Below, piece by piece: positions 5,291 through 32,249 of a stretch of DNA of 64,000 nt; position 1 is the stretch's first letter, and every line of letters begins with the position of its first letter. The position numbers were made by a program, and so were the translations under genes. Below the pieces are notes generated by a model. The model was not told the origin of the DNA. It made no database searches and saw only the letters and a program-made list of their open reading frames with translations. Source of the stretch: Tomocerus qinae (taxonomy: Eukaryota; Arthropoda; Collembola; Entomobryomorpha; Tomoceridae); assembly GCA_020055645.1 (NCBI GenBank), contig CM034546.1, positions 73,098,001-73,162,000 of the forward strand, written 5' to 3'.

Positions 5291-5349
5291 GTCTAATACT
5301 AGGAGTAGGAAGGACCTTGTTGATTCCCCCCACTCCCTGCTAAGTTTAA

Positions 5350-6287: not shown

Positions 6288-6805
6288 TGTACACATTTAA
6301 TGAAATTTTTGATTTTCTGCAACACTCTATCGACCATCTAAGACCACGTAATGAAAATATCGGAATAATAATTGCTGGAGACTTCAATGATTTTGATGTA
6401 AAACTATTAAGTAAGGCTAACTCCTTGTGCCAGGTAATAAAATTTCCAACATTTCATAAGAATGATGGTAAAATGTCAGCCCTTGATAAAATATTAACAA
6501 ATGTAAAAATTTACTACAATGACCCTGTGCCGCTAGCTCCATTAGGAAAATCTAAACACGTATCAGTAATATGGAAACCAAATTTGTATGCATGTAGTGT
6601 TAAAGTTAAAAATAAGCCATATTATTATAGACCTATCAAAGAGAGTGGCAAAGCTGATTTTCAAAAAGTTTTGATAGCAGAAACATGGGAAGACGTATTT
6701 AATGCCACTTGCGTAAATGAAAAGGCAGAAATTTTTAACTGTAAATTACAATGTTACTTTGAACAATGTTTTCCATTTAAATTAAAGTGTGATAGTAATG
6801 AGTAA
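6288..6805 (+). pseudogene. LINE A endonuclease C-terminal part
   Basis: Encodes the end of an APE-like endonuclease: GIIIAGDFNDFD (the N/D active-site strand of this class), then SALDKILTN and PLGKSKHVSV with the conserved SxH-like ending. The N-terminal catalytic Glu region is lost by 5' truncation. A 7-bp tandem duplication (AGTAATG at 6794-6800 and 6801-6807) shifts the frame, so the endonuclease ends early and the RT begins in another frame. The same protein is continuous to DKPWM if one copy is ignored. Confidence 0.8.
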
Positions 6806-8720
6806 TGACAAACCATGGATGACTAATAAGATAAAAGTATTAATGCGGAAAAAGAATAGATTGTACAAAAAAGGTTACATCCAATGGAAATCAATACGAA
6901 ATACCTTACGTAAAGAAATTAAAATGTCCAAGTTAGAATTAAGAAGTAAAAAGTCTGACGAAATTCTTAACTATACAAAGCCTTGGTATAATTTAGTAAA
7001 AACCCTTAATAATACAAGAAATGACCCGTCCGGACTATTCAGTTCTGTATCGCTGATTGTCGACGAAATAAATCCTCCTAGACTTTGTGAAGTATTAAAT
7101 GTGATAAATGGACATTTCACAAAAACCGCAACCACATATGAAGGCTTATCTAGTCAATATTTACCAGTAGTACGAATTGAATCTAGCCAACCTACAGTCT
7201 TATCGGAAATGGAAGTGCACAAGTTATTCCTGAATTTAAAAACTGATAAATCAGTACCAGTCAATACAGTACCTATCAAGTTATTAAAAGAATTTGCAAT
7301 TGAATTAAGATATATTTGTTCCCACATAATGAATACCAGTTTTGAATCATGCATTATGCCAGAGGTCTGGAAAGAAGCGGTAATATCAGTTTTACCAAAA
7401 ACAAAAGTAATTAAGACAATGAATGATATGAGGCCATTATCAATCACTAGCCCCTTTTCCCATTTACTAGAAAGTGTAATGTATGACAGATTGAGTGCAC
7501 AAATAATACCATACATAAGTAAAAACCAGTTTGGATCACAGAAAAGATGTGGCACAGTACATTATCTAGTAAAATTAATTGATTTTATACTGTCAGCGTT
7601 AGAAAAGACAGGTGTAGTAGTAATCCTCTATATTTTCGATATTTCCAAGGCTTTCGAAATGGTTGAACACTCATCATTAATAAATTATCTATATAAATCA
7701 TGTAAGGTAGATTTGTTTACTATTCTATGGCTCGTCAGTTTTTTAACTTCTAGAAGACAAAGGGTTAAGTGTAAAAGAGAACTCTCTGATAGCTTAGTTT
7801 GTAGCTGTGGTACCCCCCAGGGGACGAAAACAGGGGATCTATGCTTTATTGCCCAAATGAACCCGGTATTTTTGAAGTTTGAAGAAAAGTATGGACATAA
7901 AAATTTTTTAATTAATGGTTTTGTTGACGATACTGCAGTTGCAGAAAAAGTTTTGAACAAAACACCCAATGGGCAAGATATGCTCAATGACATGGCTGCA
8001 TGGGTTGAAGAGCGTAAATTAACATTTAATGCAAAAAAATGTGGATTTATGGTATTTGATTTCGGAAAGAATAAAAGTATAGGCGATCAATGGGCATTTA
8101 CGGTAAACGGTGTGCAAATACCTAGATTGACATCCACAAAACTACTCGGTGTAATTATATCAATTGATATCAAATGGGAGAAACATATTGTAAGCATTGT
8201 AAAACAGGCTTCTTCAAAAATGTATATTTTGTTAAATCCCAAAAGATACGGCTATAACTCTGTGGAATTACTACATGCTTATAAATGTTATGTGAGACCT
8301 ACACTAGAATACGCTTGCGTTGTATGGGGACCACCACTTACTCAAGAGCTCTGTCTAATGTTAGAAAGAGTTCAAAAACGAGCTCTATCAATTGTACTAG
8401 GGTGCCCCATACCTCAATCTGCGTATGAAGGAGTATGCAAAGCAACTGGCGTAGAAACCTTGGAGGTGCGTAGTAGTATGCTATTAATAAAATTTGGTAT
8501 ACAATTATTCAACTCAGATAGATTTAGAAATGTACTACCACCCTATTATATCAATGAAAGGAGAATTACAAGACAAACCCAAAATATATTATTGCAGCCA
8601 AATAGTACCAAAATTAAAAAGAGGTATCAAAATTCTACAGTGCCAAAAATTACTAGTACTATTAACATCATGTATAAACACAACGAAATAAAATGTAACA
8701 ATGACATAATTTTTAGGTAA
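6789..8720 (+). CDS. LINE A reverse transcriptase, intact reading frame
   Basis: A 643-codon open frame. It starts with the DKPWMT linker typical of these LINEs, then RPLSITSPFSHLLESV (fingers), DISKAFEMVEHS (motif A), CGTPQGTKTGDLCF (motif B) and GFVDDTAVAE (catalytic box, FVDD instead of the commoner YADD). The thumb has LLGVIISIDIKWEKHI, and the C-terminal region has RPTLEYACVVWGP and VQKRALSIVLG. The TPQGTK plus VDD combination is usual in CR1/L2-type elements. RT could still be translated, but the upstream endonuclease is broken and truncated, so autonomous movement is unlikely. Confidence 0.9.
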   Translation: MIVMSNDKPWMTNKIKVLMRKKNRLYKKGYIQWKSIRNTLRKEIKMSKLELRSKKSDEILNYTKPWYNLVKTLNNTRNDPSGLFSSVSLIVDEINPPRLCEVLNVINGHFTKTATTYEGLSSQYLPVVRIESSQPTVLSEMEVHKLFLNLKTDKSVPVNTVPIKLLKEFAIELRYICSHIMNTSFESCIMPEVWKEAVISVLPKTKVIKTMNDMRPLSITSPFSHLLESVMYDRLSAQIIPYISKNQFGSQKRCGTVHYLVKLIDFILSALEKTGVVVILYIFDISKAFEMVEHSSLINYLYKSCKVDLFTILWLVSFLTSRRQRVKCKRELSDSLVCSCGTPQGTKTGDLCFIAQMNPVFLKFEEKYGHKNFLINGFVDDTAVAEKVLNKTPNGQDMLNDMAAWVEERKLTFNAKKCGFMVFDFGKNKSIGDQWAFTVNGVQIPRLTSTKLLGVIISIDIKWEKHIVSIVKQASSKMYILLNPKRYGYNSVELLHAYKCYVRPTLEYACVVWGPPLTQELCLMLERVQKRALSIVLGCPIPQSAYEGVCKATGVETLEVRSSMLLIKFGIQLFNSDRFRNVLPPYYINERRITRQTQNILLQPNSTKIKKRYQNSTVPKITSTINIMYKHNEIKCNNDIIFR

Positions 8721-9985: not shown

Positions 9986-10019
9986 CAATGAAAGTAATGT
10001 AAGTCTAAAAATCAGGCGT

Positions 10020-10960
10020 GTTAAGTTAGACCCAAACCCAAATCCAGAATCTTGCCAAAGATGGGCAACACAAAATGCAACATGAGGGGGGATATCAGAA
10101 CCTATTGCCAACTGTGAAACAAGGGTAGACGAGGCTTCCTGGAGGCTTCTAACACAAATTCCAAAGTGGTGCAGCATAAGTAGGAGACTTCCAAAACATA
10201 TCCCAAAATGCTTCTACATGAGAGGAGATTTCAGAACTAATTCCAAACGTTGTTCCAAGCGTAGAGGAGGCTTCCAACGCAATTTCCAAAACAGTGCAAC
10301 ATAAGCGGGAGACTTCCGAAACTAATCCCAAAACGCTTCTACATGAGGGGGGGATTTCAGAACTAATTCCAAACGTTGTTCCAAGGGTACATGAGGCTTC
10401 CAACACAATTTTAAAAACGTTACAGCATAAGTGGGAAAGATTAAAAACATAACCCAAAATGCTTCTACATGAGGGGGGATTTCAGAACTAATTCCAAACG
10501 TTGTTCCAAGGGTAGAGGAGGCATCCAACATAAATTCCAAAACAGTGCAGCATCAGTGGGAGACTTCCAAAACATATCCCTAAATGCTACTACATGAGGG
10601 GCGATTTCAGACCTAATTCCAAACGTTATTCCAAGGGTAGAGGAGGCAACTAACACAAATTACAAAACGGTGCAGCATAAGTGGGAGACTTCCAAAATTA
10701 ATCCCTTAATGCTACTACATGAGAGGGGATTTCAGAACTAATTCCAAACGTTGTTGCAAGGGTATAATAGACATCCAACGCAAATTCCAAAACGGTGCAC
10801 CATAAGTGGGAGACTTCCAAATCAAATCCCAAAATGTTTCTATATGAGGGGGGATTTCAGAACTAATTCCAAAGGCTGTTCCAAGCGTAGAGGAGGCAAC
10901 CAACACAATTTCCAAAACGGTGCAGCATAAGTAGGAGACTTCCAAATATAGATGACTAAT
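10020..10960 (-). repeat. 125-bp tandem repeat, about 7 units (left outer arm)
   Basis: Anchor CATGAGG occurs near 10081, 10217, 10342, 10468, 10593, 10718 and 10843, so the period is 125 bp after the first. Read on the minus strand, each unit is three diverged 42-bp blocks: CACTTATGCTGCACCG..., CTACCCTTGGAACAACG... and CATGTAGAAGCATTTTGG.... It is therefore a trimer of the 42-bp unit seen in the right arm. Minus-strand ORFs here are by-products of a period close to a multiple of 3. Confidence 0.85.
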
Positions 10961-10999
10961 AGGATTAGGGGGTACTTAGTAAAACTAGCTTCAAACAGT

Positions 11000-13900
11000 T
11001 CTATATATTCGATCTAAAGTTATTTAAGTCTTAGTAGAAACTAGTACATTAGAATTTCGTTTTCCAAATACCAAAATTTTTGTGGGCCCTTAAACCTTGA
11101 CATTCAATTATAATGATCATTGAGTCCGATAAACCACAGATGAAGACATTTTAAATCAAACTTTCAGACATTTTGATAGTTCCGATCGAAAGATATTTAA
11201 TTTTTTGTTCATATCTTCTGAATATTCCATACACCTTTAAGATGAAAAAATTTTAAGCACCGATAACCTTGCCATTCAATTGTAATGATAATTGATTCTG
11301 ATAGACCACTGATTGGAAGATTACTAATTAAAATTTTAGACATTTTGATAGTTCCGATCGAAAAATATTTAATTTTTTGTTCATATCATTCGAATATTCT
11401 ATAAACCTTTAAGATGAAAAAAGTTTAAAGGACCGAAAACCTTGCCATTCAATTGTAATGATAATTGATTCTGATAAACCACTGATTGGAAGATTTTTAT
11501 TAAAAATTTCAGACATTTTGAAAGTTGCGATTGAAAAATATTTAATTTTTTGTTTAAATCATTCGAATATTCTATAAACATTTAAGATAAAAAAGTTTAA
11601 AGGACCGAAAAACTTGCCATTCAATTGTAATGATAATTGATTCTGTTAGACCACTGATTGGAAGATTTCTAATTAAAATTTCAGACATTTTGATAGTTCC
11701 GATCGCAAAATATTTAATTTTTTGTTCAAGTGTTCCAAATATTCTATATACCTTTAAGATGTTTAATGTACCGACAACCTTGCCATTCAATTGTAATGAT
11801 AATTGATTCTGATAAACCACTGATTGGAAGATTTTTACTAAAAATTTCAGACATTTTGAAAGTTCCGATCGCAAAATATTTAATTTTTTGTTCAAGTGTT
11901 CCAAATATTCTATATACCTTTAAGATGTTTAATGTACCGACAACCTTGCCATTCAATTGTAATGATAATTGATTCTGATAAACCACTGATTGGAAGATTT
12001 TTACTAAAAATTTCAGACATTTTGAAAGTTCCGATCAAAAGATATTTAATTTTTTGTTCAAGTTTTCCAAATATTCTATATACCTTTAAGATGAAAAAAG
12101 TTTAAAGGACCGACAACCTTGCCATTCAATTGTAATGATCATTGAGTCGAAAAAACTACAGATGAAGCCATTTTTAATCATACTTTCAGACATTTTGATA
12201 GTTCCGATCGAAAGATAGTTAAATTTTTGTTCATATCTTCCAAATATTATATATACCTTTAGGATGAAAAAGTTTAAAGGACCAAAAACCTTGCCATTCA
12301 ATTGTAATGATAATTGATTCTGATAAACCACTGATTGGAAGATCACTAATTAAAATTTCAGACATTTTGATAGTTCCGATCGCAAAAGATTTAATTTTTT
12401 GTTCAAGTTTTCCAAGTATTTTATATACCTTTAGGATGAAAAAAGTTTAAAGGACCGATATCCTTGCCATTCAATTATAATGATAATTGAATCTGATAAA
12501 CCAATGATTGGAAGATTTCTAATTAAAATTTCAGACATTTTGATAGTTCCGATAGAAAGATATTTAATTTTTTGTTCATATCTTCCGAATATTCTATACA
12601 TCTTTAAGATGAAAAAGTTTAAAGGACAGACAACCTTGCCATTTAATTGTAATGATAATTGATTCTGAAAAAAAACTGATTGGAAGATTACTAATTAAAA
12701 TTTCAGACATTTTCATAGTTCCGATCGCAAAATATTTAATTTTTTGTTCAAGTTTTCCAAATATTCTATATACCTTTAGGATGAAAAAAGTTTGAAGGAA
12801 CGATATCCTTGCCATTCAATTGTAATGATAATTGATTCTGATAAACCACTGATTGGAAGATTTCTAATTCAAATTTCGGACATTTTGATAGTTCCAATCG
12901 AAAAATATTTAATATTTTGTTCAAGTTTTCCAAACATTATATATACCTTTAGGATGAAAAAGTTTAAAGGACCGACAACCTTGCCATTCAATTGCAATGA
13001 TAATTACTTCTGATAAACTACTGATTAAACCATTTTTATTAAAAATTTTAGACATTTTGATAGTTCCGAACAAAAGATAGTTAATTTTTTGTTCAAGTTT
13101 TCCAAATATTCTATATACCTTTAAGATAAAAAAATTTAAAGGACCGATATCCTTGCCAATCAATTGTAATGATAATTGAATCTCATAAACCACTGATTGG
13201 AAGATTTATAATTAAAATTTCAGACCTTTTGATAGTTCCGATCGAAAGATATTTAATTTTTTGTACAAATTTTCTTAAATATTTAATATACCTTTATACC
13301 GATAACCTTGCCATTCAATTTTAATGATAATTAATTCTGATAAACCACTGATTGGGAGGTTTTTAATAAAAATTTATGACATTTTGATAGTTCCGATCGA
13401 AAAATATTTATTTTTTTGTACAAATTTCCCGAATATTCTATATACATTTAAGATGAAAAATTTTTAAAGGACCGATAACCTTGCCATTCAATTATAATGA
13501 CAATTGATTCTGATAAACCACTGATTACGAGATTTTTAACAAAAATTTTAAACATTTTGATAGTTCCGATCGAAAGATATTTAATTTTTTGTACAAATTT
13601 CCCGAATACTATATATACATTTAAGATGAAAAATGTTTAAAGGACCGATATCCTTGCCATTCAATTGTAATGATAATTGAATCTCACACACCACTGATTG
13701 GAAGATTTCTAATTAAAATTTCAGACATTTTGATAGTTCCGATCGAAAGATATTTAATTTTTTGTTCATATCTTCCGAATATTCTATACACCTTTAAGAT
13801 GAAAAAGTTTAAAGGACCAAAAACCTTGCCATCCAATTGTAATGATAATTGATTCTAATAATCCACTGATTGGAAGATTTTTATTAAAAATTTCAGACAT

Positions 13901-16900
13901 TTTGAAAGTTGCGATTGAAAAATATTTAATTTTTTGTTTAAATCATTCGAATATTCTATAAACATTTGAGATAAAAAAGTTTAAAGGACCGAAAAACTTG
14001 CCATTCAATTGTAATGATAATTGATTCTGTTAGACCACTGATTGGAAGATTTCTAATTAAAATTTCAGACATTTTGATAGTTCCGATCGCAAAATATTTA
14101 ATTTTTTGTTCAAGTGTTCCAAATATTCTATATACCTTTAAGATGTTTAATGTACCGACAACCTTGCCATTCAATTGTAATGATAATTGATTCTGATAAA
14201 CCACTGATTGGAAGATTTTTACTAAAAATTTCAGACATTTTGAAAGTTCCGATCAAAAGATATTTAATTTTTTGTTCAAGTTTTCCAAATATTCTATATA
14301 CCTTTAAGATGAAAAAAGTTTAAAGGACCGACAACCTTGCCATTCAATTGTAATGATCATTGAGTCGAAAAAACTACAGATGAAGCCATTTTTAATCATA
14401 CTTTCAGACATTTTGATAGTTCCGATCGAAAGATATTTAATTTTTTGTTCATATCTTCCAAATATTATATATACCTTTAGGATGAAAAAGTTTAAAGGAC
14501 CAAAAACCTTGCCATTCAATTGTAATGATAATTGATTCTGATAAACCACTGATTGGAAGATCACTAATTAAAATTTCAGACATTTTGATAGTTCCGATCG
14601 CAAAAGATTTAATTTTTTGTTCAAGTTTTCCAAGTATTTTATATACCTTTAGGATGAAAAAAGTTTAAAGGACCGATATCCTTGCCATTCAATTATAATG
14701 ATAATTGAATCTGATAAATCAATGATTGGAAGATTTCTAATTAAAATTTCAGACATTTTGATAGTTCCGATAGAAAGATATTTAATTTTTTGTTCATATC
14801 TTCCGAATATTCTATACATCTTTAAGATGAAAAAGTTTAAAGGACAGACAACCTTGCCATTTAATTGTAATGATAATTGATTCTGAAAAAAAACTGATTG
14901 GAAGATTACTAATTAAAATTTCAGACATTTTCATAGTTCCGATCGCAAAATATTTAATTTTTTGTTCAAGTTTTCCAAATATTCTATATACCTTTAGGAT
15001 GAAAAAAGTTTGAAGGAACGATATCCTTGCCATTCAATTGTAATGATAATTGATTCTGATAAACCACTGATTGGAAGATTTCTAATTCAAATTTCAGACA
15101 TTTTGATAGTTCCAATCGAAAAATATTTAATATTTTGTTCAAGTTTTCCAAACATTATATATACCTTTAGGATGAAAAAGTTTAAAGGACCGACAACCTT
15201 GCCATTCAATTGCAATGATAATTACTTCTGATAAACTACTGATTAAACCATTTTTATTAAAAATTTTAGACATTTTGATAGTTCCGAACAAAAGATAGTT
15301 AATTTTTTGTTCAAGTTTTCCAAATATTCTATATACCTTTAAGATAAAAAAATTTAAAGGACCGATATCCTTGCCAATCAATTGTAATGATAATTGAATC
15401 TCATAAACCACTGATTGGAAGATTTATAATTAAAATTTCAGACCTTTTGATAGTTCCGATCGAAAGATATTTAATTTTTTGTACAAATTTTCTTAAATAT
15501 TTAATATACCTTTATACCGATAACCTTGCCATTCAATTTTAATGATAATTAATTCTGATAAACCACTGATTGGGAGGTTTTTAATAAAAATTTATGACAT
15601 TTTGATAGTTCCGATCGAAAAATATTTATTTTTTTGTACAAATTTCCCGAATATTCTATATACATTTAAGATGAAAAATTTTTAAAGGACCGATAACCTT
15701 GCCATTCAATTATAATGACAATTGATTCTGATAAACCACTGATTACGAGATTTTTAACAAAAATTTTAAACATTTTGATAGTTCCGATCGAAAGATATTT
15801 AATTTTTTGTACAAATTTCCCGAATATTATGTACACATTTAAGATGAAAAACGTTTAAAGGACCGATAACCTTGCCATTCAATTATAATGACAATTGATT
15901 CTGATGAACCACTGATTACGAGATTTTTAACAAAAATTTTAAACATTTTGATAGTTCCGATCGAAAGATATTTAATTTTTTGTACAAATTTCCCGAATAC
16001 TATATATACATTTAAGATGAAAAATGTTTAAAGGACCGATATCCTTGCCATTCAATTGTAATGATAATTGAATCTCACACACCACTGATTGGAAGATTTC
16101 TAATTAAAATTTCAGACATTTTGATAGTTCCGATCGAAAGATATTTAATTTTTTGTTCATATCTTCCGAATATTCTATACACCTTTAAGATGAAAAAGTT
16201 TAAAGGACCAAAAACCTTGCCATCCAATTGTAATGATAATTGATTCTAATAATCCACTGATTGGAAGATTTTTATTAAAAATTTCAGACATTTTGATAGT
16301 TCGGATTGAAAGATATTTAATTTTTTGTTCATATCTTCCGAATATTCTATACATCTTTAAGATGAAAAAGTTTAAAGGACCAAAAACCTTGCCATTCAAT
16401 TGTAATGATAATTGATTCTGATAAACCACTGATTGGAAGATCACTAATTAAAACTTCAGACATTTTGATAGTTCCGATCGCAAAAGATTTAATTTTTTGT
16501 TCAAGTTTTCCAAATATTCTATATACCTTTAGGATGAAAAAAGTTCAAAGGACCGATATCCTTGCCATTCAATTGTAATGATAATTGAATCTAATAAACC
16601 ACTGATTGGAAGATTTCTAATTAAAATTTCAGACATTTTGATAGTTCCGATCGAAAGATATTTAATTTTTTGTTCATATCTTCCGAATATTCTATACATC
16701 TTTAAGATGAAAAAGTTTAAAGGACAGACAACCTTGCCATTTAATTGTAATGATAATTGATTCTGAAAAAAAACTGATTGGAAGATTACTAATTAAAATT
16801 TCAGACATTTTCATAGTTCCGATCGCAAAATATTTAATTTTTTGTTCAAGTTTTCCAAATATTCTATATACCTTTAGGATGAAAAAAGTTTGAAGGAACG

Positions 16901-19900
16901 ATATCCTTGCCATTCAATTGTAATGATAATTGATTCTGATAAACCACTGATTGGAAGATTTCTAATTCAAATTTCGGACATTTTGATAGTTCCAATCGAA
17001 AAATATTTAATATTTTGTTCAAGTTTTCCAAACATTATATATACCTTTAGGATGAAAAAGTTTAAAGGACCGACAACCTTGCCATTCAATTGCAATGATA
17101 ATTACTTCTGATAAACTACTGATTAAACCATTTTTATTAAAAATTTTAGACATTTTGATAGTTCCGAACAAAAGATAGTTAATTTTTTGTTCAAGTTTTC
17201 CAAATATTCTATATACCTTTAAGATAAAAAAATTTAAAGGACCGATATCCTTGCCAATCAATTGTAATGATAATTGAATCTCATAAACCACTGATTGGAA
17301 GATTTATAATTAAAATTTCAGACCTTTTGATAGTTCCGATCGAAAGATATTTAATTTTTTGTACAAATTTTCTTAAATATTTAATATACCTTTATACCGA
17401 TAACCTTGCCATTCAATTTTAATGATAATTAATTCTGATAAACCACTGATTGGGAGGTTTTTAATAAAAATTTATGACATTTTGATAGTTCCGATCGAAA
17501 AATATTTATTTTTTTGTACAAATTTCCCGAATATTCTATATACATTTAAGATGAAAAATTTTTAAAGGACCGATAACCTTGCCATTCAATTATAATGACA
17601 ATTGATTCTGATAAACCACTGATTACGAGATTTTTAACAAAAATTTTAAACATTTTGATAGTTCCGATCGAAAGATATTTAATTTTTTGTACAAATTTCC
17701 CGAATACTATATATACATTTAAGATGAAAAATGTTTAAAGGACCGATATCCTTGCCATTCAATTGTAATGATAATTGAATCTCACACACCACTGATTGGA
17801 AGATTTCTAATTAAAATTTCAGACATTTTGATAGTTCCGATCGAAAGATATTTAATTTTTTGTTCATATCTTCCGAATATTCTATACACCTTTAAGATGA
17901 AAAAGTTTAAAGGACCAAAAACCTTGCCATCCAATTGTAATGATAATTGATTCTAATAATCCACTGATTGGAAGATTTTTATTAAAAATTTCAGACATTT
18001 TGAAAGTTGCGATTGAAAAATATTTAATTTTTTGTTTAAATCATTCGAATATTCTATAAACATTTGAGATAAAAAAGTTTAAAGGACCGAAAAACTTGCC
18101 ATTCAATTGTAATGATAATTGATTCTGTTAGACCACTGATTGGAAGATTTCTAATTAAAATTTCAGACATTTTGATAGTTCCGATCGCAAAATATTTAAT
18201 TTTTTGTTCAAGTGTTCCAAATATTCTATATACCTTTAAGATGTTTAATGTACCGACAACCTTGCCATTCAATTGTAATGATAATTGATTCTGATAAACC
18301 ACTGATTGGAAGATTTTTACTAAAAATTTCAGACATTTTGAAAGTTCCGATCAAAAGATATTTAATTTTTTGTTCAAGTTTTCCAAATATTCTATATACC
18401 TTTAAGATGAAAAAAGTTTAAAGGACCGACAACCTTGCCATTCAATTGTAATGATCATTGAGTCGAAAAAACTACAGATGAAGCCATTTTTAATCATACT
18501 TTCAGACATTTTGATAGTTCCGATCGAAAGATATTTAATTTTTTGTTCATATCTTCCAAATATTATATATACCTTTAGGATGAAAAAGTTTAAAGGACCA
18601 AAAACCTTGCCATTCAATTGTAATGATAATTGATTCTGATAAACCACTGATTGGAAGATCACTAATTAAAATTTCAGACATTTTGATAGTTCCGATCGCA
18701 AAAGATTTAATTTTTTGTTCAAGTTTTCCAAGTATTTTATATACCTTTAGGATGAAAAAAGTTTAAAGGACCGATATCCTTGCCATTCAATTATAATGAT
18801 AATTGAATCTGATAAACCAATGATTGGAAGATTTCTAATTAAAATTTCAGACATTTTGATAGTTCCGATAGAAAGATATTTAATTTTTTGTTCATATCTT
18901 CCGAATATTCTATACATCTTTAAGATGAAAAAGTTTAAAGGACAGACAACCTTGCCATTTAATTGTAATGATAATTGATTCTGAAAAAAAACTGATTGGA
19001 AGATTACTAATTAAAATTTCAGACATTTTCATAGTTCCGATCGCAAAATATTTAATTTTTTGTTCAAGTTTTCCAAATATTCTATATACCTTTAGGATGA
19101 AAAAAGTTTGAAGGAACGATATCCTTGCCATTCAATTGTAATGATAATTGATTCTGATAAACCACTGATTGGAAGATTTCTAATTCAAATTTCAGACATT
19201 TTGATAGTTCCAATCGAAAAATATTTAATATTTTGTTCAAGTTTTCCAAACATTATATATACCTTTAGGATGAAAAAGTTTAAAGGACCGACAACCTTGC
19301 CATTCAATTGCAATGATAATTACTTCTGATAAACTACTGATTAAACCATTTTTATTAAAAATTTTAGACATTTTGATAGTTCCGAACAAAAGATAGTTAA
19401 TTTTTTGTTCAAGTTTTCCAAATATTCTATATACCTTTAAGATAAAAAAATTTAAAGGACCGATATCCTTGCCAATCAATTGTAATGATAATTGAATCTC
19501 ATAAACCACTGATTGGAAGATTTATAATTAAAATTTCAGACCTTTTGATAGTTCCGATCGAAAGATATTTAATTTTTTGTACAAATTTTCTTAAATATTT
19601 AATATACCTTTATACCGATAACCTTGCCATTCAATTTTAATGATAATTAATTCTGATAAACCACTGATTGGGAGGTTTTTAATAAAAATTTATGACATTT
19701 TGATAGTTCCGATCGAAAAATATTTATTTTTTTGTACAAATTTCCCGAATATTCTATATACATTTAAGATGAAAAATTTTTAAAGGACCGATAACCTTGC
19801 CATTCAATTATAATGACAATTGATTCTGATAAACCACTGATTACGAGATTTTTAACAAAAATTTTAAACATTTTGATAGTTCCGATCGAAAGATATTTAA

Positions 19901-20878
19901 TTTTTTGTACAAATTTCCCGAATATTATGTACACATTTAAGATGAAAAACGTTTAAAGGACCGATAACCTTGCCATTCAATTATAATGACAATTGATTCT
20001 GATGAACCACTGATTACGAGATTTTTAACAAAAATTTTAAACATTTTGATAGTTCCGATCGAAAGATATTTAATTTTTTGTACAAATTTCCCGAATACTA
20101 TATATACATTTAAGATGAAAAATGTTTAAAGGACCGATATCCTTGCCATTCAATTGTAATGATAATTGAATCACACCACTGATTGGAAGATTTCTAATTA
20201 AAATTTCAGACATTTTGATAGTTCCGATCGAAAGATATTTAATTTTTTGTTCATATCTTCCGAATATTCTATACACCTTTAAGATGAAAAAGTTTAAAGG
20301 ACCAAAAACCTTGCCATCCAATTGTAATGATAATTGATTCTAATAATCCACTGATTGGAAGATTTTTATTAAAAATTTCAGACATTTTGATAGTTCGGAT
20401 TGAAAGATATTTAATTTTTTGTTCATATCTTCCGAATATTCTATACATCTTTAAGATGAAAAAGTTTAAAGGACCAAAAACCTTGCCATTCAATTGTAAT
20501 GATAATTGATTCTGATAAACCACTGATTGGAAGATCACTAATTAAAACTTCAGACATTTTGATAGTTCCGATCGCAAAAGATTTAATTTTTTGTTCAAGT
20601 TTTCCAAATATTCTATATACCTTTAGGATGAAAAAAGTTCAAAGGACCGATATCCTTGCCATTCAATTGTAATGATAATTGAATCTGATAAACCACTGAT
20701 TGGAAGATTTCTAATTAAAATTTCAGACATTTTGATAGTTCCGATCGAAAGACATTTAATTTTTTGTTCATATCTTCCGAATATTCTATACATCTTTAAG
20801 ATGAAAAAGTTTAAAGGACAGACAACCTTGCCATTTAATTGTAATGATAATTGATTCTGAAAAAAAACTGATTGGAAG
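11000..20878 (+). repeat. About 172-bp satellite, roughly 58 monomers (left inner arm)
   Basis: Anchor CCTTGCCATTCAATTGTAAT recurs every 166-173 bp (for example 11267, 11439, 11611, 11778, 11944, 12117). Each monomer also has ACTGATTGGAAGAT, AGTTCCGATCGAAA and TTTAATTTTTTGTTC. All small ORFs of 60-90 codons here are the same monomer read in different frames. The array stops abruptly at 20878, in the middle of a monomer. Confidence 0.95.
11896..20878 (+). repeat. Higher-order repeats within the 172-bp satellite
   Basis: Identical monomer variants recur at fixed distances. The variant at 12792 repeats at 15010, 16890 and 19108 (steps 2218, 1880, 2218). The variants at 13670, 14114 and 14698 repeat at 17768, 18212 and 18796 (4098 bp). 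So blocks of 13 and 11 monomers alternate to make a 4098-bp superunit. An extra monomer at about 15828-16000 explains the 2391-bp step between 13670 and 16061. Confidence 0.9.
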
Positions 20879-22480
20879 ACGCGACGGTGTTAGAAGCTCA
20901 GAATGAAAGTACATTCGAAACAAAATATTGGATTGGAATTATCAAAAATAGTCATATAATTTAGAAATATTCTCAATCTATGGTTACTCGCATTCAATTC
21001 CAAGTGTAATAATGGTTCTAAATTTATTTGTTGAACTAAAAGACGTGACATACTAGGACGTATCTAGAAATTGGATATAAGGGATGTTAAGAAAGAATAT
21101 AGAAAAACAAAATAGAAACAAATCTCTTAATACTAATTTATTATTTGATTCAATTTATGATAAGCCTTCAAGATAAGTGTGCCTACGAATTTTAGTTCAC
21201 AAAACTTAATACAATTAGAAATTGAGAATTTATTCGAAGCATTTGGAATCTATTCCAATTACTTTGAATTTATTCGAATTATTTCGAACAAATTCGAATT
21301 ATTTCGAAATCATTCGAATTTGGATTTGGTTGCTGCAAACGGGAAGCGGAAATTTTTTCCCAATGCAAAAATCAGACAACAAATTTCTAAGTATTTTCAA
21401 AACTTGCTACTTACTTTGCTTTTTGCTTAGTACGTCCCGTTTGCAGCAACCCAACCCGAATTTTTTCGAATTTTTTGCTAATTTATTTAGTTTATTTTTT
21501 AAGTTATTATGTTTATGGAAAACAAAATCATGATATTAGAACTGAAGATTAAGAATTTTTAAAATTTACAAATTGCTGATTTATGTTAAGATTTTTGCAA
21601 ATCAAATGTGATTAATACCTGTTATCACATTACCAACTCATTCGCCAAGTGGCAAATTGCTAGACAAATTTCCAATTAGGATACAATAAGATAATCTCAA
21701 ATTCTATGATTCAAGGAAGAGAAAAAACAAAGAAGTATTAGACTAGGCTAGAACAGATTGGAAAATTTTCGAAAATAAAATAAATGCAATTAGATTGAAA
21801 GCTAAGAGTTATTCAAGAACGACCCTGCTACAGAACCGATTCTATCGAGTCATTCTCATGAAAAATAATCAAAATGTTGTAAATTTATGTACTAAAACTA
21901 TTTGCCACTCCAAAAACGTTCTGAGAGTTTTAACTTAAATCTGTGTAGTAAGTTTTTCCAACTCATATCCAGTTTTCGATAATTCTTAAAGGTAAACCAA
22001 TCATTGAATACAGCTTCTATAAACAAATAAATAAATTCAATATAAGTAACAAATTTTGTTTTATTTCAAAAAATATATCGAGAATAGAAAATTTTTACTG
22101 ACATTTTTGTATTGCGTTACAACATAAAGTAAAAAAAACTCTAAACGGAACTGGTGATTGCTCTTCCATTACTTTAACTATTATTGTAAATACCAGTTTA
22201 TTATGTTTTACTTTACTGGAGTCTATATAATTGCACGTATCCAAACATTTAGGATTTTCATGTTATTATTAATAAACCTTTTACTATTTTATATAATTTA
22301 TGCGACTTTATAATTGTATCTCAATTTCGGTTTTTCGAATTTTCAGGTTTTATTGCTATTCTGCTATTTCATTCACATATAGTTAAATATCAACACCAGT
22401 TTTCAGTTATTAAAAACTGAATCCGGTTTTAAAAAATCCGGTTTTTCACCGGTTTTAAAACCGGCGTACAACCTGCTTTG
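20879..22480. other. Unique centre between the inverted satellite arms
   Basis: No supported gene. Contains AT-rich GAATTATTTCGAA-like runs at 21225-21320 and a 17-bp perfect inverted repeat. It also contains a hAT-MITE-like end (ACGTATCTAGAAATTGG at 21058-21074, resembling the element at 57570) and a perfect 16-bp palindrome CCGGTTTTAAAACCGG at 22449-22464 close to the right arm. If the structure is a foldback element, this is its middle domain. Confidence 0.5.
21328..21451. repeat. 17-bp perfect inverted repeat with 90-bp loop
   Basis: GGTTGCTGCAAACGGGA at 21328-21344 and its exact complement at 21435-21451. Similarity continues imperfectly outwards (GAATTTGGATTT against AACCCGAATTTT). It looks like a small MITE or hairpin in the middle of the foldback centre. 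Confidence 0.75.
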
Positions 22481-25400
22481 GATTCCCTATTCGGAACACT
22501 TAAACAAATATTATTCGATCGAAACTATTATAATGTCTGAAATTTTTATTAATAATCTCCTAATCAGCGATTTATCAGAACCGGTTATCATTACTATTGA
22601 ATGGCAAGGTTATTGGTCCTTTAAACTTTTTTCATCTTAAAGATTTATAGAACATTGGAAAATTTTCTACAAAAAATTAAATATCTTTCGATTGAAACTA
22701 TCAAAATGTCTGAAATTTTAATTAGAAATCTTCCAATCAGTGGTTTATCAGAATCAATTATCATTACAATTGAATGGCAAGGTTATTGGTACTTTAAACT
22801 TTTTTCATCTTAAAGGTATATAGAATATTTAAAAAAATTTTGTACAACAAATTAAATATTTTTCGATCGCAAATATCAAAATGTCTGAAATTTTTGTTAA
22901 AAATCTCCTATTCAGTGGTTTATCAGAATCAATTGTCAATATAATTGAATCGCAAGGTTATCGGTACTTTAAGCATTTTTCATCTTAAATGTATATATAA
23001 TATTGTGGAAATTTGTACAAAAAATTAAATATTTTTCGATCGGAACTATCAAAATGTTTGAAATTTTTGTTAAAAATCTCGTAATCAGTGGTTTATCAGA
23101 ATCAATTATCATTACAAATGAATGGCAAGGTTATCAGTCCCTTAAACATTTTTCATCTTAAATGTATATAGAATATTCGGGAAATTTGAATAAATAAGTA
23201 AATATTTTTCGATCGGAACTATCAAAATGCCTGAAATTTTTATTAAAGATTTCCCAATCAGTGTTTTATCAGAATCAATTGTCATTATAATTGAATGCAA
23301 GGTTATCGGTACTTTAAACATTTTTTATCTTAAATGTATATATAGTATTCGGGAAATTTGTACAAAAAATTAAATATTTTTCGATCGGAACTATCAAAAT
23401 GTTTGAAATTTTTGTTAAAAATCTCGTAATCAGTGGTTTATCAGAATAATTTATCATTACAAATGAATGGCAAGGTTATCAGTCCCTTAAACATTTTTCA
23501 TCTTAAATGTATGTAGAATATTCGGGAAATTTGAATAAATAATTAAATATTTTTCGATCGGAACTATCAAAATGTCTGAAATTTTTATTAAAAATCTTAC
23601 AATCAGTGGTATATCAGAATCAATTGTCATTATAATTGAATGGCAAGGTTATCGGTACTTTAAACTTTTTTCATTTTAATAGTATATTGAATATTTAAAA
23701 AAATTTGTACAAAAAATAAAATATTTTTCGATCGGAACTATCAAAATGTTTGAAAGTTTTGTTAAAAACCTCGTAATCAGTGGTTTGTCAGAATCAATTG
23801 TCATTATAATCAAATGGCAAGGTTATCGGTACTTTAAACATTTTTCATCTTAAATGTATATAGACAACTTGGGAAATTTGTTCAAAAAAATAAATATTTT
23901 TCGATCGGAACTATCAAAATGTCATAAATTTTTATTAAAAACCTCCCAATCAGTGGTTTATCAGAATCAATTGTCATCATAATTGAATGGCAAGGTTATC
24001 GGTAATTTAATCTTTTTCATCTTAAAGGTATATTGAATATTTAGGAAAATTTGTACAAAAAATTAAATATTTTTCGATCGGAACTATCAAAATGTCTGAA
24101 ATTTTTATTAATAATCTCCTAATCAGCGATTTATCAGAACCAGTTATCATTACTATTGAATGTCATGGTTATCGGTCCTTTAAACTTTTTTCATCTTAAA
24201 GTTTTATAGAACATTGGAAAATTTTCTACAAAAAATTAAATATTTTTCGATTGAAACTATCAAAAAGGCTGAAATTTTAATTAGAAATCTTCCAATCAGT
24301 GGTTTATCAGAATCAATTATCATTAAAATTGAATGGCAAGGTTATCGGTCCTTTAAACATTTTTTATCTTAAAGGTATATAGAATATTTAAAAAAAATTG
24401 TACAAAAAATTAAATATCTTTCGATCGGAACTATCAAAATGTTTAAAATTTTTGTTAAAAATCTCGTAATCAGTGGTTCATCAGAATCAATTGTCATTAT
24501 AATTGAATGGCAAGGTTATCGGTCCTTTAAACGTTTTTCATCTTAAATGTGTACATAATATTCGGGAAATTTGTACAAAAAATTAAATATTTTTCGATCG
24601 GAACTATTGAAATGTTTAAAATTTTTGTTGAAAATCTCGTAATCAGTGGTTTATCAGAATCAATTGTCATTACAATTGAATGGCAAGGTTATCGGTACTT
24701 TAAACATTTTTCATCTTAAATGTATATAGAATATTCGGGAAATTTGTACAAAAAAATAAATATTTTTCGATCGGAACTATCAAAATGTCATAAATTTTTA
24801 TTAAAAACCTCCCAATCAGTGGTTTACCAGAATTAACTATCATTATAATTGAATGGCAAGGTTATCGGTACTTTAAACATTTTTCATCTTAAAGGTATAT
24901 AGAATATTTAAATAAATTTTGTACAAAAAATTAAATATTTTTCGATCGGAACTATCAAAATGTTTGAAATTTTTGTTAAAAATCTCCTAATCAGAGGTTT
25001 GTCAGAACCAATTGTCATTATAATTGAATGGCAAGGTTATCTGTCCTTTAAACATTTTTCGTCTTAAATGTATGAAGAATATTCGGGAAATTTGTACAAA
25101 AAAATAAATATTTTTCGATCGGAACTATCAAACTGTCTAAAATTTTTGTTAAAAATCTCCTAATCAGTGGTTTATCAGAATCAATTGTCATTATAATTGA
25201 ATGGCAAGGTTATCGGTCCTTTAAACTTTTTTTAACTTAAAGGTATATTGAATATTTAGGAAAATTTGTACAAAAAATTAAATATTATTCGATCGGAACT
25301 ACCGAAATGTTTGAAATTTTTGTTAAAAATCTCGTAATCAGTGGTTTATCAGAATCAATCGTCATTATAATTGAATGGCAAGGTTATCGGTCTTTTAAAC

Positions 25401-28400
25401 GTTTTTCATCTTAAAAGTGTATATAATATTCGGGAAATTTGTACAAAACATTAAATATTTTTCGATCGGAACTATTGAAATGTTTGAAATTTTTGTTAAA
25501 AATCTCCTATTCGGTGGTTTATCAGTATCAATTGTCATTATAATTGAATGGCAAGGTTATCGGTACTTTAAACTTTTTTCATCTTAAAGGTATATAGAAT
25601 ATTTAAAAAAATTTGTACAAAAAATTAAATATTTTTCGATCGGAACTATCAAAATGTTTGAAATTTTTGCTAAAAATTTCCTATTCAGTGGTTTATCAGA
25701 GTCAATTATCATTATAATTGAATGGCAAGGTTATCGGTTCTTCAAACATTTTTCATCTTAGAGGTATATAGAATATTTAAAAAATTTTTGTACAAAAAAT
25801 TAAATATTTTTCGATCGGAACTATCAAAATGTTTGAAAATTTTGTTAAAAATCTCCTAATAAGTGGTTTGTCAGAATTAATTATCATTACAAATGAATGG
25901 CAAGGTTATCGGTCATTTAAACATTTTTCATCTTAAATGTATGAAGAATATTCGGGAAATTTGTACAAAAAAATAAATTTTTTTCGATCGGAACTATCAA
26001 AATGTCTAAAATTTTTGTTAAAAATCTCCTAATCAGTGGTTTATCAGAATCAATTGTCATTATAATTGAATGGCAAGGTCATCGGTCCTTTAAACTTTTT
26101 TTAACTTAAAGGTTATTAAATATTTAGGAAAATTTGTACAAAAAATTAAATATTTTTCGATCGGAAATATCAAAATGTCTGAAATTTTTAATAAAAATTT
26201 CCCAATCAGTGTTTTATCACAATCAATTGTCATTATAATTGAATGGCAAGGGTATCGGTTCTTTAAAAATTTTTCATCTTAAATGTATATATAGTATTCG
26301 GGAAATTTGTACAAAAAATTAAATATTTTTCGATCGGAACTATCAAAATGTTTGAAATTTTTGTTAAAAATCTCGTAATCAGTGGTTTATCAGAATCAAT
26401 TGTCATTATAATTGAATGGCAAGGTTATCGGTCCTTTAAACGTTTTTCATCTTAAATGTGTATATAATATTCGGGAAATTTGTACAAAAATTAAATATTT
26501 TTCGACCGGAACTATTAAAATGTTTGAAATTTTTGTTAAATATCTCCTTTTCAGTGGTTTATCAGAATCAATTGTCAATATAATTGAATCGCAAGGTTAT
26601 CGGTACTTTAAACATTTTTCATCTTAAATGTATATATAATAATGTGGAAATTTGTTTAAAAAATTAAATATTTTTCGATCGGAACTATCAAAATGTTTGA
26701 AATTTTTGTTAAAAATCTCGTAATCAGTGGTTTATCAGAATCAATTATCATTACAAATGAATGGCAAGGTTATCAGTCCCTTAAACATTTTTCATCTTAA
26801 ATGTGTATAGAATATTCGGGAAATTTGAATAAATAATTAAATATTTTTCGATCGGAATTATCAAAATGTCTGAAATTTTTATTAAAGATTTCCCAATCAG
26901 TGTTTTATCAGAATCAATTGTCATTATAATTGAATGCAAGGTTATCGGTACTTTAAACATTTTTCATCTTAAATGTATATATAGTATTCGGGAAATTTGT
27001 ACAAAAAATTAAATATTTTTCGATCGGAACTATCAAAATGTTTGAAAGTTTTGTTAAAAACCTCGTAATCAGTGGTTTTTCAGAATTAATTATCATTACA
27101 AATGAATGGCAAGGTTATCGGTCCTTTAAACATTTTTCATCTTAAATGTATGTAGAATATTCGGGAAATTTGTACAAAAAATTAAATATTTTTTGATCGT
27201 AACTATCAAAATGTCTGAAATTTTTACTAATAATCTCCTAATCAGTGGTTTATCAGAATAAATTGTCATTATAATTGAATGGTAAGGTTATCGGTCCTTT
27301 AAACGTTTTACATCTTAAATGTGTATATAATATTCGGGAAATTTGTACAAAAAATTAAATATTTTTCGATCGTAACTATCAAAATGTTTGAAATTATTGT
27401 TAAAAATCTCCTATTTGGTGGTTTATCAGAATCAATTGTCATTATAATCAAATGGCAAGGTTATCAGTACTTTAAACATTTTTCATCTTAAATGTATATA
27501 GACAATTTGAGAAATTTGTTCAAAAAAATAAATATTTTTCGATCGGAACTATCAAAATGTCATAAATTTTTATTAAAAACCTCCCAATCAGTGGTTTATC
27601 AGAATCAATTGTCATCATAATTGAATGGCAAGGTTATCGGTAATTTAATTTTTTTCATCTTAAAGGTATATTGAATATTTAGGAAAATTTGTACAAAAAA
27701 TTAAATATTTTTCGATCGGAACCATCAAAATGTCTGAAATTTTTATTAATAATCTTCTAATCAGCGATTTATCAGAACCGGTTATCATTACTATTGAATG
27801 GCACGGTTATCGGTCCTTTAAACTTTTTTCATCTTAAAGTTTTACAGAACATTGGAAAATTTTCTACAAAAAATTAAATATTTTTCGATTGAAACTATCA
27901 AAATGTCTGAAATTTTAATTAGAAATCTTCCAATCAGTGGTTTATTAGAATCAATTATTATTAAAATTGAATGGCAAGGTTATCGGTCCTTTAAACATTT
28001 TTTATCTTAAATGTATATAGAATATTCGGGAAATTTGTACAAAACATTAAATATTTTTCGATCGGAACTATCAAAATGTCTGAAATTTTTATTAATAATC
28101 TCCTAATCAGTGGTTTATCAGAATCAATTGTCATTATATTTGAATGGCAAGGTTATCGGTACTTTAAACTTTTTTCATCTTAAAGGTATATAGAATATTT
28201 AAAAAAATTTGTACAAAAAATTAAATATTTTTCGATCGGAACTATCAAAATGTTTGAAAGTTTTGTTAAAAATCTCCCAATCAGTGGTTTATCAAAATCA
28301 ATTGTCATTATAATTGAATGGCAAGGTTATCGGTACTTTAAACATTTTTCATCTTGGATGTATATATTGTATTCGGGAAATTTGTACAAAAAATTAAATA

Positions 28401-28680
28401 TTTTTCGATCGGAACTATCAAAATGTTTGAAATTTTTGTTAAAAATCTCGTAATCAGTGGTTTATCAGAATCAATTATCATTACAAATGAATGGCAAGGT
28501 TATCAGTCCTTTAAACATTTTTCATCTTAAATGTATATAGAATATTCGGGAAATTTGAATAAATAATTAAATATTTTTCGATCGGAACTATCAAAATGTC
28601 TGAAATTTTTATTAAAAATCTTTCAATCAGTGGTTTATCAGAATCAATCATCATTACTATTGAATATCAGGGTTGTATTT
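22481..28680 (-). repeat. About 172-bp satellite, roughly 36 monomers (right inner arm)
   Basis: Same family as 11000-20878 but inverted: the plus strand reads ATTGAATGGCAAGGTTATCGG, TTTCATCTTAAATGTATATA, ATTTTTCGATCGGAACTATC and AATCAGTGGTTTATCAGAAT. Monomers differ from each other by many substitutions and I see no exact kilobase-scale repetition, in contrast to the left arm. Confidence 0.95.
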
Positions 28681-28684
28681 GCTT

Positions 28685-29525
28685 TTAACTTTGGAATAAG
28701 TGTTGGAAGTCTCCCACTTATGCTACACCGTTTTGGAATAAGTGTTGGAAGTCTCTCACTTATGCTACACCGTTTTGGAATAAGTGTTTGAGGTCTCCCA
28801 CTTATGCTACACAGTTTTGGAATAGGTGTTGGATGTCTCTTACCTATGCTACACTGTTTCGGAATAAGTGTTGAAGGTCTCCAACTTATGCTACATCATT
28901 AAGGAATAAGTGTTGAAGGTCTCCCAATTATGCTACACCGTTTTGGAATAAGTGTTGGAGGTCTCCCACTTATGCTACACCATTATGGAATAAGTTTTGA
29001 AGGTCTCTCACTTATGCTACACCGTTTTGGAATAAGTGTTTGAGGTCTCCCACTTATGCTACACCGTTTTGGAATAGGTGTTGGAGGTCTCTTACCTATG
29101 CTACACTGTTTTGGAATAAGTGTTGAAGGTCTCCCAGTTATGCTACACCATTATGGAATAAATGTTGGAGGTCTCCCACTTATGCTACACCGTTTTGGAA
29201 TAAGTGTTGAAGGTCTCCCACTTATGCTACACCGTTTTGGAATAAGTGTTGGAGGTCTCCCACTTATGCTACACCGTTTGGAATAAGTTTTGGAGGTCTC
29301 CCACTTATGCTACACCGTTTTGGAATAAGTGTTGGAGGTCTCCCACTTATGCTACACCATTATGGAATAAGTGTTGAAGGTCTCCCACTTATGCTACACC
29401 GTTTTGGAATAAGTGTTGGAGGTCTCCCACTCTTGCTATATTGGTTTGGAATTAGTGTTGATAGCCTTCTAGCCGCGATACACTGTTTTGGAATTGGTGC
29501 AGGAATCCCCCCTCATGCTGCTGTT
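28685..29525 (+). repeat. 42-bp tandem repeat, about 18-20 units (right outer arm)
   Basis: Unit TTTTGGAATAAGTGTTGGAG followed by GTCTCCCACTTATGCTACACCG, period 42 bp. Because 42 is 14 codons, an ORF repeating MLHRFGISVGGLPL stays open, but this is a consequence of the period, not evidence of a gene. The last units (29440-29520) change toward the 125-bp trimer type of the left arm. Confidence 0.92.
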
Positions 29526-29629
29526 TGAAAAGCCCATCTTTGGCAGGTTTCTAGGTTTGGGTTTGGGTTTAACTTTACGCGCCTAATTTTCCACTGTTTT
29601 CAATTTCAATGTGACAATATTCTTTCATT

Positions 29630-30158: not shown

Positions 30159-30638
30159 GTGCAATACTCTTGTGATACCGTAAGAATTAAGAACCCGAAT
30201 ACAGGAATAATCATTGCTGGAGACTTTAATGACTTCAAGGTGAAATCTATAAGTAATAATTGTAAGTTGAATCAAATTGTAAATTTTCCTACTTTCTACA
30301 AAAATGATGGGTCAATGTCTGCCTTAGACAAGATTTTAACAAATATGAAAGGGTACTATTATGACCCTGAACAATTACCACCGTTAGGAAACTCTAGGCA
30401 CCTATCAATATTATGTAAACCTCGGTTATCTAGTACTGTTAGGAAAGCCACTAGTCGTAAAAGTAAAGTTATATGCAGGCCTATAAATGATAGTGGAAAA
30501 CTGAAGTTCAAAAATTATTTAGGAATTGAAACATGGGAAAATGTTATAAATGCTACCACTGTAGAAGAAAAAGTAAATTTGTTTGTTGACACGTTACATA
30601 CATACTTTGAATTTACTTTGAGTACAAGTCTAAGGTGA
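30159..30638 (+). pseudogene. LINE B endonuclease C-terminal part
   Basis: Contains GIIIAGDFNDFK, SALDKILTNMK and LGNSRHLSI as in LINE A. The frame breaks near 30615; the RT frame then reads FEYKSKVKRCGDKPWM. The break is at a different place from the one in LINE A, so the two copies decayed independently. The N-terminal half is absent. Confidence 0.75.
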
Positions 30639-32249
30639 AAAGATGTGGTGATAAACCATGGATGACTGATAGAATTAAGAAATTAATGGTAAAAAAGAAC
30701 AAATTACATAAAAGTGGAGACGAAAGGTGGAAAGAAATTCGCAATTTATTACAACGAGAAATTAAACAAGCCAAGCTAGCCACTAGAAAGTCAAATGAGG
30801 AAAAAATTGAACAATGTAGCCGGTCGTGGTTTAAATTAGTGTCAGATTTAAGCAGTACAAAAAATGATCCTAGTGTTCTATTTAATACACTAGCAATCAC
30901 TGTCGATTCGAATTGCCCCCCAGACTTAGAATCTATGCTAAACATCGTAAATATTGAAAAAACAAAAACGGCAACTACTTTTAAGGGCCTACCTAACGAT
31001 TACTTACCTAAAATCAGAATCGAGTCTAGTCAACCGGCTTACCTTACTGATTACGAAGTATATCAACTACTTTTAAAACTAAAACCTTCAAAAGCTGTAC
31101 CACCAAATACAATACCCATTAGTGTTATTAGGGAGTTTGCGTTGGAACTCTGTTACATTGTAGGACATATTATGAATCTTAGTTTTGAACACTGTATTGT
31201 TCCTAGTGTGTGGAAACAAGCTACAGTAACAGTATTACCAAAAGTAAAATGTGTGAAATCAATAAATGATCTAAGACCAATTTCTATTACTAGTCCGTTC
31301 GCTCAAGTAATGGAAAGTGTAATATATCCTAGAATAAGTAATAAATTAATGCAATGTGTAAGTAAACAGCAATTTGGGTCCCAAAAAGCTTGTGGTACCA
31401 TACATTATTTGGTCGGGTTGATGGACTTTGTGTTAAAGACGTTAGAAACATTGGGGTCAAAGGTCATCTTATATGTATTTGATATCTCAAAAGCCTTCGA
31501 GTTGGTTGAACATTCTCTATTGGTTGATTACCTATATAAAAACTGCAAAGTGGATTTATTCACAATATTATGGCTAGTGAGCTTTTTAACCAATCGTACC
31601 CAAAGAGTTAAATGTGGAGCAAAGGTTTCAAAGAGTCTAGTATGCACCTGTGGCACTCCGCAAGGAACGAGAACTGGACCTATTTGTTTTTTAGCTCAAA
31701 TAAACCCAGTCCTGACTGAGTTTGAAAATAAATATGGCGAAATGGGTTTCTCAATATTTGGTTTCGTCGATGATACGACAGTAGCCGAAGTAATTTTAAA
31801 AAATAGGGAGCCAAAAGGTCAGGCAATGCTAGAAGACCCATCCTAGAATATGGATGTGTACTTTGGGGGCCTACACTAAGTAAAAATCTTAGTAGCGCAG
31901 TAGAAGAGGTACAGAAACGCGCGTTAACAATTATAAATGGTGAAAAAGTTTCCGAAAGTGGGTACAATGCAGTATGTGCTAAGTTTGGCATTGAAAGACT
32001 AGATTATCGTAGGTTAAATTTACTCAAAAGCTTTGGTAAAGAGATACTGTACTCAGAACGTTTTCGATCAATGTTGCCACGATATTACGAACGGGAGAAA
32101 AGGGTCACTAGACAATCTAAAGGTTTTTTGTTACAACCAACTAATGTAAAAATTAAGAAACGCTATGAAAACTCTACAATACCACAAGTTGTGAATTTGT
32201 TAAACACCATGTACGTCAATGATGAAATTAAGTTATCTGTGTGTAAGTA
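30635..32249 (+). pseudogene. LINE B reverse transcriptase with internal deletion
   Basis: Frame 30635-31846 has RPISITSPFAQVMESV, DISKAFELVEHS, CGTPQGTRTGPICF and GFVDDTTVAE. At about 31835 it jumps from GQAMLED to PILEYGCVLWGP in another frame, so about 130 codons present in LINE A (the thumb) are missing. The C-terminal part then runs to a TAG at 32247-32249, with VQKRALTIINGE and NSTIPQVVNLLNTMY matching LINE A. The catalytic residues are present but the protein cannot be complete. Confidence 0.85.

Follow-up and report, generated by a model that had tools for sequence, protein, structure and literature searches.

A probable recombinant copy of a Rehavkus-like foldback transposon family with satellite-built arms in Tomocerus qinae

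In the FB elements of Drosophila, the inverted repeats are made of short tandem units; to our knowledge, they contain no conventional-length satellite, and FB is set beside the present family by description. Here, we analyzed a 64,000-nucleotide window of the genome of the collembolan Tomocerus qinae (contig CM034546.1, positions 73,098,001 to 73,162,000), in which positions 10014 to 29584 form a foldback structure with long satellite arms, designated E1. Its relatives in the genome are recently mobile, giant cut-and-paste transposons with satellite-built arms, and E1 itself is probably a non-autonomous recombinant copy of this Rehavkus-like foldback DNA transposon family.

Rehavkus elements generate 9-bp duplications, encode a PHD finger, and carry a minisatellite ahead of the 3′ terminal inverted repeat (TIR) (PMC6446971). 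Rehavkus-1_TC of Tribolium castaneum is 9.5 kb long and carries a 164-bp satellite, mostly as 5 and 8 monomers, in its inverted termini (PMC10218199). In the foldback element Tetris of Drosophila virilis, the inverted ends contain tandem repeats of ~220 bp; these repeats also occur as kilobase-size arrays, and their amplification inside Tetris was reported (PMC4079207). For the Drosophila element Galileo, either ectopic recombination or conversion was proposed as the source of chimeric copies (PMC3573991), and the Mutator/Foldback element Tm1 of root-knot nematodes has composite terminal repeats and mostly 9-bp duplications (PMC3169594). Since Rehavkus-1_TC and Tetris are both documented to carry satellite DNA in their inverted termini, arms built of satellite are not a new kind, contrary to the original prediction, a reading of the window made from its letters alone.

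All searches covered one assembly, the 334-Mb genome from which the window comes. The copies are numbered E1 (the window copy), E2 to E18, Q1 (C1:140124751), and Q2 (C7:1266314). The left-edge query gave at least 151 genome matches, many of them in plus/minus pairs 3.6 to 43 kb apart (40 of 63 candidates scored), and the right-edge query gave 33 (all scored); in a further search, 8 of 33 candidates were scored. Two of the right-edge matches, C88:14943 (outer array only) and C1:76655942 (unfetched), were not counted as ends. The edges are found in many copies in inverted pairs. The original prediction had raised the question of whether they always flank inverted 172-bp arrays; they do not, since a 174-bp relative takes their place in some copies.

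The terminus reading covered 31 ends, including the two of E1. Perfect 9-bp target duplications were detected at zero offset beside AGGCGYGTTAAGTTARACCC in 9/9 other copies with both termini readable (E2 to E10). The duplications were AAAAATATT, CTGTCAATG, AGTAAAGTA, TGAAAATAC, GTCCTTCCA, ATAAATACA, GAAAAGAAG, GTAATAATT, and TACGCGAAC, and no sequence common to the nine was seen by eye. We conclude from these duplications that the copies represent a mobile foldback family, in agreement with the original suggestion that E1 is foldback-like and belongs to a mobile entity with satellite DNA on board. The left and right edges were 94 to 100% identical over 110 bp in E2, E3, E5, and E7 to E10, and 85% identical in E4, while the left terminus of E6 is interrupted after ~27 bp. 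The ends E17L, E18L, and Q1R fit the terminus pattern poorly (6 to 8 mismatches of 26).

A full copy consists of a ~125-bp terminus, a minisatellite outer array, several kilobases of 172/174-bp satellite, and a coding centre, followed by the mirror image. The arms of E2, E3, E5, E6, and E7 are made of a 174-bp satellite and those of E1, E4, E8, Q1, and Q2 of a 172/173-bp satellite; samples from E9 and E10 match E8. According to tiles, the two arms measure 6.5 and 15.7 kb in E2, 8.7 and 6.9 kb in E3, 13.0 and 3.5 kb in E5, 7.0 and 10.6 kb in E7, and 5.3 and 5.7 kb in E8. Shorter arms were found in small copies (1.2 and 1.7 kb in E6; 0.6 kb on the left of E4), and the space between the arms is almost nil in E6 and E7. 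All five consensus units have an identical 13-bp box in common, and 172-type stretches matched the 174-type consensus at 65 to 73% over ~120 to 309 bp. Therefore, we take the two satellites as homologous; whole 172- and 174-type monomers, with gaps counted, are only ~47% identical.

For monomer comparison, units of 160 to 185 bp were cut at the box with up to 2 mismatches, and up to 20 were used per arm. Between-arm identity equalled within-arm identity in E3, E7, and E8, and was slightly lower in E1 (84% versus 87%) and E2 (85% versus 88%). It was clearly lower in E5 (74% versus 84 to 85%) and E6 (77% versus 81 to 87%), the arms of which consist of different variants. The monomer box CCTTGCCATTCAA does not vary among the five consensus units, but the case for its special conservation was weak: it ranked 8th to 10th of ~160 windows in 4/5 copies and 89th of 161 in E2, with p values from 0.008 to 0.37 across copies. 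A search in which 14 of 38 candidates were scored also gave 172-type patches at C7:64004-67418 and C7:89148-90702; over the 2.3 kb that follow 90702, neither an edge nor an outer array was seen. These patches may represent satellite outside any element, or else a copy that has been truncated.

Multi-exon gene open reading frames (ORFs) are located between the arms of E2, E3, E5, and E8. The Peptidase_C48 (Ulp1) domain (PF02902) was detected in the C-terminal ORFs of E3 (E value 5.3e-12), E5 (1.5e-12), and E8 (1.7e-10). A PHD finger (PF00628; 26.2 bits versus a cutoff of 24) was detected across two conceptually spliced exons of E8, the donor site being GTAAGT and the acceptor site TTTTCAG, and the same cysteine pattern is present in E5, split over two ORFs. 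By sequence, the closest solved relatives of the E8 finger include the PHD fingers of TAF3 and BPTF, which read methylated histone H3. Furthermore, we noted the motifs YFDSTGS, CSAH, and NAVESYFSN, which we take to resemble the DDE core of MULE/Rehavkus transposases. No FLYWCH/SWIM zinc finger or MULE domain was found at an E value of ≤1 in 10 separate ORF pieces, which fall short of the full spliced protein. These pieces gave no grounds for placing the family with Phantom or other MULEs; a PHD finger is present instead.

The E2 gene is decayed, and the middle part of E8 is apparently frame-broken; an open C-terminal frame is present in E3, E5, E8, E9, and E10. The dN/dS ratios of two exons were 0.18 and 0.30 between E3 and E5, and 0.18 and 0.12 between E3/E5 and E8, the latter being rough values at a dS above 2. 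The transposases of the two subfamilies are only 51 to 57% alike. Between the arms of E4 (L017:3365-4454), the ORFs resemble by eye the RNase H end of a retroelement and are apparently a nested retroelement piece.

Arm length differed strongly even between nearly identical copies. E8, E9, and E10 share 99 to 100% identity in a 569-amino-acid ORF, and their terminus-to-terminus spans are 20.8, 43.1, and 36.6 kb, respectively. When 20 samples of 401 bp were taken inside E9 and E10, all 20 matched E8: 18 contained satellite, which in one sample extended over 260 bp, and 2 were interior, with 99.75 to 100% identity to E8. This is in line with the claim that mobile copies carry the satellite and indicates that the extra length of E9 and E10 is largely satellite on both sides, although there may be nested insertions between the sample points. 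The sampled satellite extends over at least 12.4 and 15.4 kb in E9 and at least 10.9 and 7.4 kb in E10, compared to 5.3 and 5.7 kb in E8. Hence, arm length differs at least 1.4- to 2.7-fold between copies that are 99 to 100% alike in coding sequence. End positions and sampling thus show that arms lengthen or shorten by kilobases between near-identical copies; either unequal exchange or slipped gap repair is the probable mechanism.

In E1, the termini are at 10014 and 29584 and not at 9986 and 29620, as had been proposed. The left terminus (10014 to 10140, plus strand) is of type A, as in E2 to E7, and is 98% identical to that of E2 over 110 bp. It is followed on the same strand by an outer array of 125-bp units (10141 to 10946; Tandem Repeats Finder and outer-array comparison) and by a single, partial monomer of the 174-bp family (10954 to 11094; 88% identity to the E2 consensus). 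This monomer ends at a hybrid junction, located at the shared 14-bp box CCTTGCCATTCAAT (1 mismatch in E1), and the same junction is present in E4. The left arm proper comprises ~57 units of 172-bp satellite (11093 to 20879, plus strand; Tandem Repeats Finder, monomer comparison). Beyond the centre (20880 to 22505), the minus strand carries the right arm, with ~36 units of 173-bp satellite (22506 to 28665; Tandem Repeats Finder, arm alignment, monomer comparison), an outer array of 42-bp units (28690 to 29460), and a terminus of the Q type (29461 to 29584), recognized by the genome search with the right edge. In inverted alignment, the E1 arms were 81% identical over 7.1 kb (10008-17008 versus 29590-22506), far above chance, and the satellite portions were 83 to 85% identical over ~6.2 kb. 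This bears out the mirror order of tandem families recognized originally, with arrays found by Tandem Repeats Finder on both sides. An origin of the E1 arms from two satellite families was ruled out, since both belong to one 172-type cluster except for the short 174-type stub.

The two ends of E1 belong to different subfamilies. Its left and right edges are only 69% identical over 110 bp, and its outer arrays only 69% over 834 bp. The left array is of the 125-bp kind (83 to 87% identity to E2L, E3L, E4, and E8), and the right one is of the 42-bp kind seen in Q1 and Q2 (87 to 90% identity to Q1R and Q2L). The best matches to the right edge were C1:140124633-140124751 (Q1R, 92%) and C7:1266314-1266442 (84%); over the 110 bp of the right terminus, Q1R and E18L were nearest (79% each). 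Thus, E1 is bounded by termini on both sides, as predicted, but these termini and the outer arrays are not the shared sequences that they had been taken for.

Furthermore, E1 has no target duplication, as already noted in the original prediction: the flanking 9 bp are CTAAAAATC on the left (10005 to 10013, plus strand) and AATTTTCCA on the right (29585 to 29593, plus strand). The left 400-bp flank, which includes the left 9 bp, is a dispersed repeat with 18 other genome matches (19 of 19 candidates scored). In 3/3 fetched copies, this repeat runs on past the breakpoint with AAAAATC and then AGGCTGTG, and this continuation had no match within the first 1 kb to the right of E1. Since the continuation is unmatched there and another repeat makes up the right flank, we conclude that the E1 flanks represent two target sites. 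The mismatched ends, the missing duplication, and the lack of a match to the left-flank continuation in the first 1 kb at the right rule out E1 as a simple single insertion.

The 1,626-bp centre of E1, which contains no ORF of ≥140 amino acids, was originally considered unique. However, it recurs at C7:1319291-1321064 (40 of 288 candidates scored), and positions 21821 to 22489 are a nested dispersed repeat (many genome matches elsewhere to centre positions 942-1610). On C7, the centre is flanked by 172-type satellite, plus strand on one side and minus on the other, and a terminus is present at C7:1266314. This copy, Q2, is of the E1 type and spans more than 57 kb. Among the matches listed, its left arm consists of separate patches between 1268249 and 1319286, possibly due to insertions. 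A weaker match to the centre (76 to 77%) was found inside E11. Since E1 and Q2 share a centre in a like inverted-satellite structure with a terminus, they appear to form one subfamily, and it was ruled out that the centre is a stretch of foreign genomic sequence caught between two halves of elements. Neither E1 nor the centre of Q2 contains coding sequence; consequently, E1 could be moved only by a transposase made elsewhere.

These data are consistent with the following scheme. A transposase with the detected PHD finger and Ulp1-like protease domain and a putative DDE-type core would cut the element out and paste it elsewhere, generating the observed 9-bp duplications. E1 would have arisen when copies from two subfamilies recombined: at the shared box, a 172-type body would have been joined to a left end that bears the 174-type stub, and the right end would come from another subfamily. 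The flanks would then derive from different target sites, leaving no duplication. Several observations weigh against this scheme. No DDE family was detected by Pfam in the 10 separate ORF pieces, and the name Rehavkus would apply by features, which were set against the Repbase group by description. E4 has the same hybrid left junction together with a 9-bp duplication, and therefore the hybrid left arm predates the E1 locus and has moved at least once. For the reciprocal recombination product, 0 matches to either predicted junction were found with up to 3 mismatches; thus, either the exchange was not reciprocal or its partner was lost or altered. The exact left join of E1 is ambiguous, since 4 bp (AGGC) are common to target and terminus, and a repair join may have occurred here. 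In addition, the right terminus of E11 is cut short (11/26 mismatches, no terminus seen), the left terminus of E14 was not seen within 2.2 kb beyond its left array, and nine ends (E12R, E13L, E14R, E15L, E16R, E17L, E18L, Q1R, and Q2L), two of them on small contigs, had no partner in the edge searches.

The lack of a duplication could also be explained by a single old insertion, the target duplication of which decayed and the left end of which was overwritten by gene conversion from a type A copy. Indeed, divergence is seen at the right edge and the left edge is close to E2L, and the junction shared with E4 shows that arm segments do pass between copies. We consider this unlikely, since the left flank lies inside a dispersed repeat that runs on past the breakpoint in all three fetched copies, and this continuation is unmatched in the first 1 kb to the right of E1. 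Long similar satellite arrays are typical places of mis-joins, and an assembly artefact uniting two half elements via a satellite arm would account for the mismatch of both flanks and ends. It is rather improbable, however, that an artefact would bring together arms of one variant cluster, produce a hybrid junction that recurs in the duplication-bearing E4, and create a structure with a centre that is also present on C7. Finally, the inverted 172-bp arrays, and the C7 satellite patches with no edge or outer array seen in the 2.3 kb beyond them, could reflect no element at all but heterochromatic satellite DNA that was inverted locally. This view is refuted for the family by the duplications at the termini of all nine other copies, and transposase genes are located between the arms of several copies; for E1, it is highly improbable. 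Thus, a recombinant origin of E1 from mobile copies is the explanation that we favor.

Compared by description, the family shares with Rehavkus the 9-bp duplication (E2 to E10; none in E1), the PHD finger, and satellite or minisatellite ends. The TIRs of Rehavkus are tabulated at 26 to 400 bp (PMC6446971). Here, the 110-bp edge is nearly identical left to right in most copies, but the inverted arm as a whole measures kilobases in most of them. The term "ulp1" is absent from the main text of that paper, whereas a Ulp1 domain is present here. While the arms of Rehavkus-1_TC have 5 to 8 monomers, most arms here are 3.5 to 16 kb long, and spans reach 43 kb (more than 57 kb on C7). Tetris is similar in being a foldback element that feeds a satellite; however, according to the paper, no transposase-encoding element was found (PMC4079207), whereas here coding, duplication-bearing copies have long arms on both sides. 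Galileo chimeras resemble E1 in their ends of different subfamilies and non-matching flanks, but Galileo belongs to the P-element superfamily and its longest TIR reported in that paper is ~1.26 kb (PMC3573991). In contrast to a reciprocal rearrangement of the Galileo type, a reciprocal product with exchanged flanks gave 0 matches here with up to 3 mismatches. Tm1 includes one crossover-like copy without a duplication, like E1, but has an internal repeat of ~14 bp and a MULE-like transposase (PMC3169594).

A literature search, covering few subscription papers, revealed no paper uniting PHD finger, Ulp1, transposase, Mutator, and terminal inverted repeats. In the papers compared, we did not find arms of this scale, coding copies included, a change of arm length between near-identical coding copies, or two satellites diverged alongside two transposase subfamilies. 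The same applies to the Ulp1 domain and to a recombinant copy joined within satellite.

To the left of E1, the window contains a reverse transcriptase (RVT_1) ORF (6786-8720, plus strand) and gypsy-like RVP, RT, and RNase H domains (3190-5350, minus strand). To the right, an RVT_1 match was found at 30611-31846, and thus retrotransposon pieces are present on both sides. No confirmation was obtained at the right edge that it cuts a Helitron; by motif, we take ORFs on the minus strand, 2.7 to 4.6 kb away from the E1 edge, to resemble Helitron. Further tandem arrays were noted in the window: a 64-bp array of ~36 copies (42887-45172), located in a C-rich region where the GC skew is very pronounced (-0.38 to -0.53), and a 133-bp array of ~17 copies, 87% alike (52090-54319). 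Two 140-bp arrays ~7 kb apart (54386-54752 and 61874-62190) have units that look reverse-complementary by eye and are possibly another, smaller inverted-arm structure. Adjacent 32-bp arrays in opposite orientation (59051-59288) appear by eye as a small foldback. In the genome, many interstitial TTAGG arrays were detected, mostly read on C1, with 531 exact 25-mers (235 forward and 296 reverse; 0 in the reversed control), as fits an insect or another arthropod.

It has long been asked whether satellite DNA is made and spread by transposons. The presence of homologous 172- and 174-bp satellites in two subfamilies with such distant transposases could mean that satellite and transposase diverged together. 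On this basis, we tentatively raise the possibility, which we still hold to be somewhat doubtful, that the satellite is an ancient working part of the transposon and not its cargo, being homogenized within copies and spread as multi-kilobase inverted arrays, with recombination between arms rearranging chromosomes. If satellite and transposase indeed diverged together, the monomers would be candidate binding sites for the transposase or for chromatin proteins. Since duplication-bounded copies with nearly the same coding sequence have very different arm lengths, the order of events, a jump followed by expansion, is directly testable. Moreover, E1 suggests that such elements also serve as sites of exchange between distant loci.

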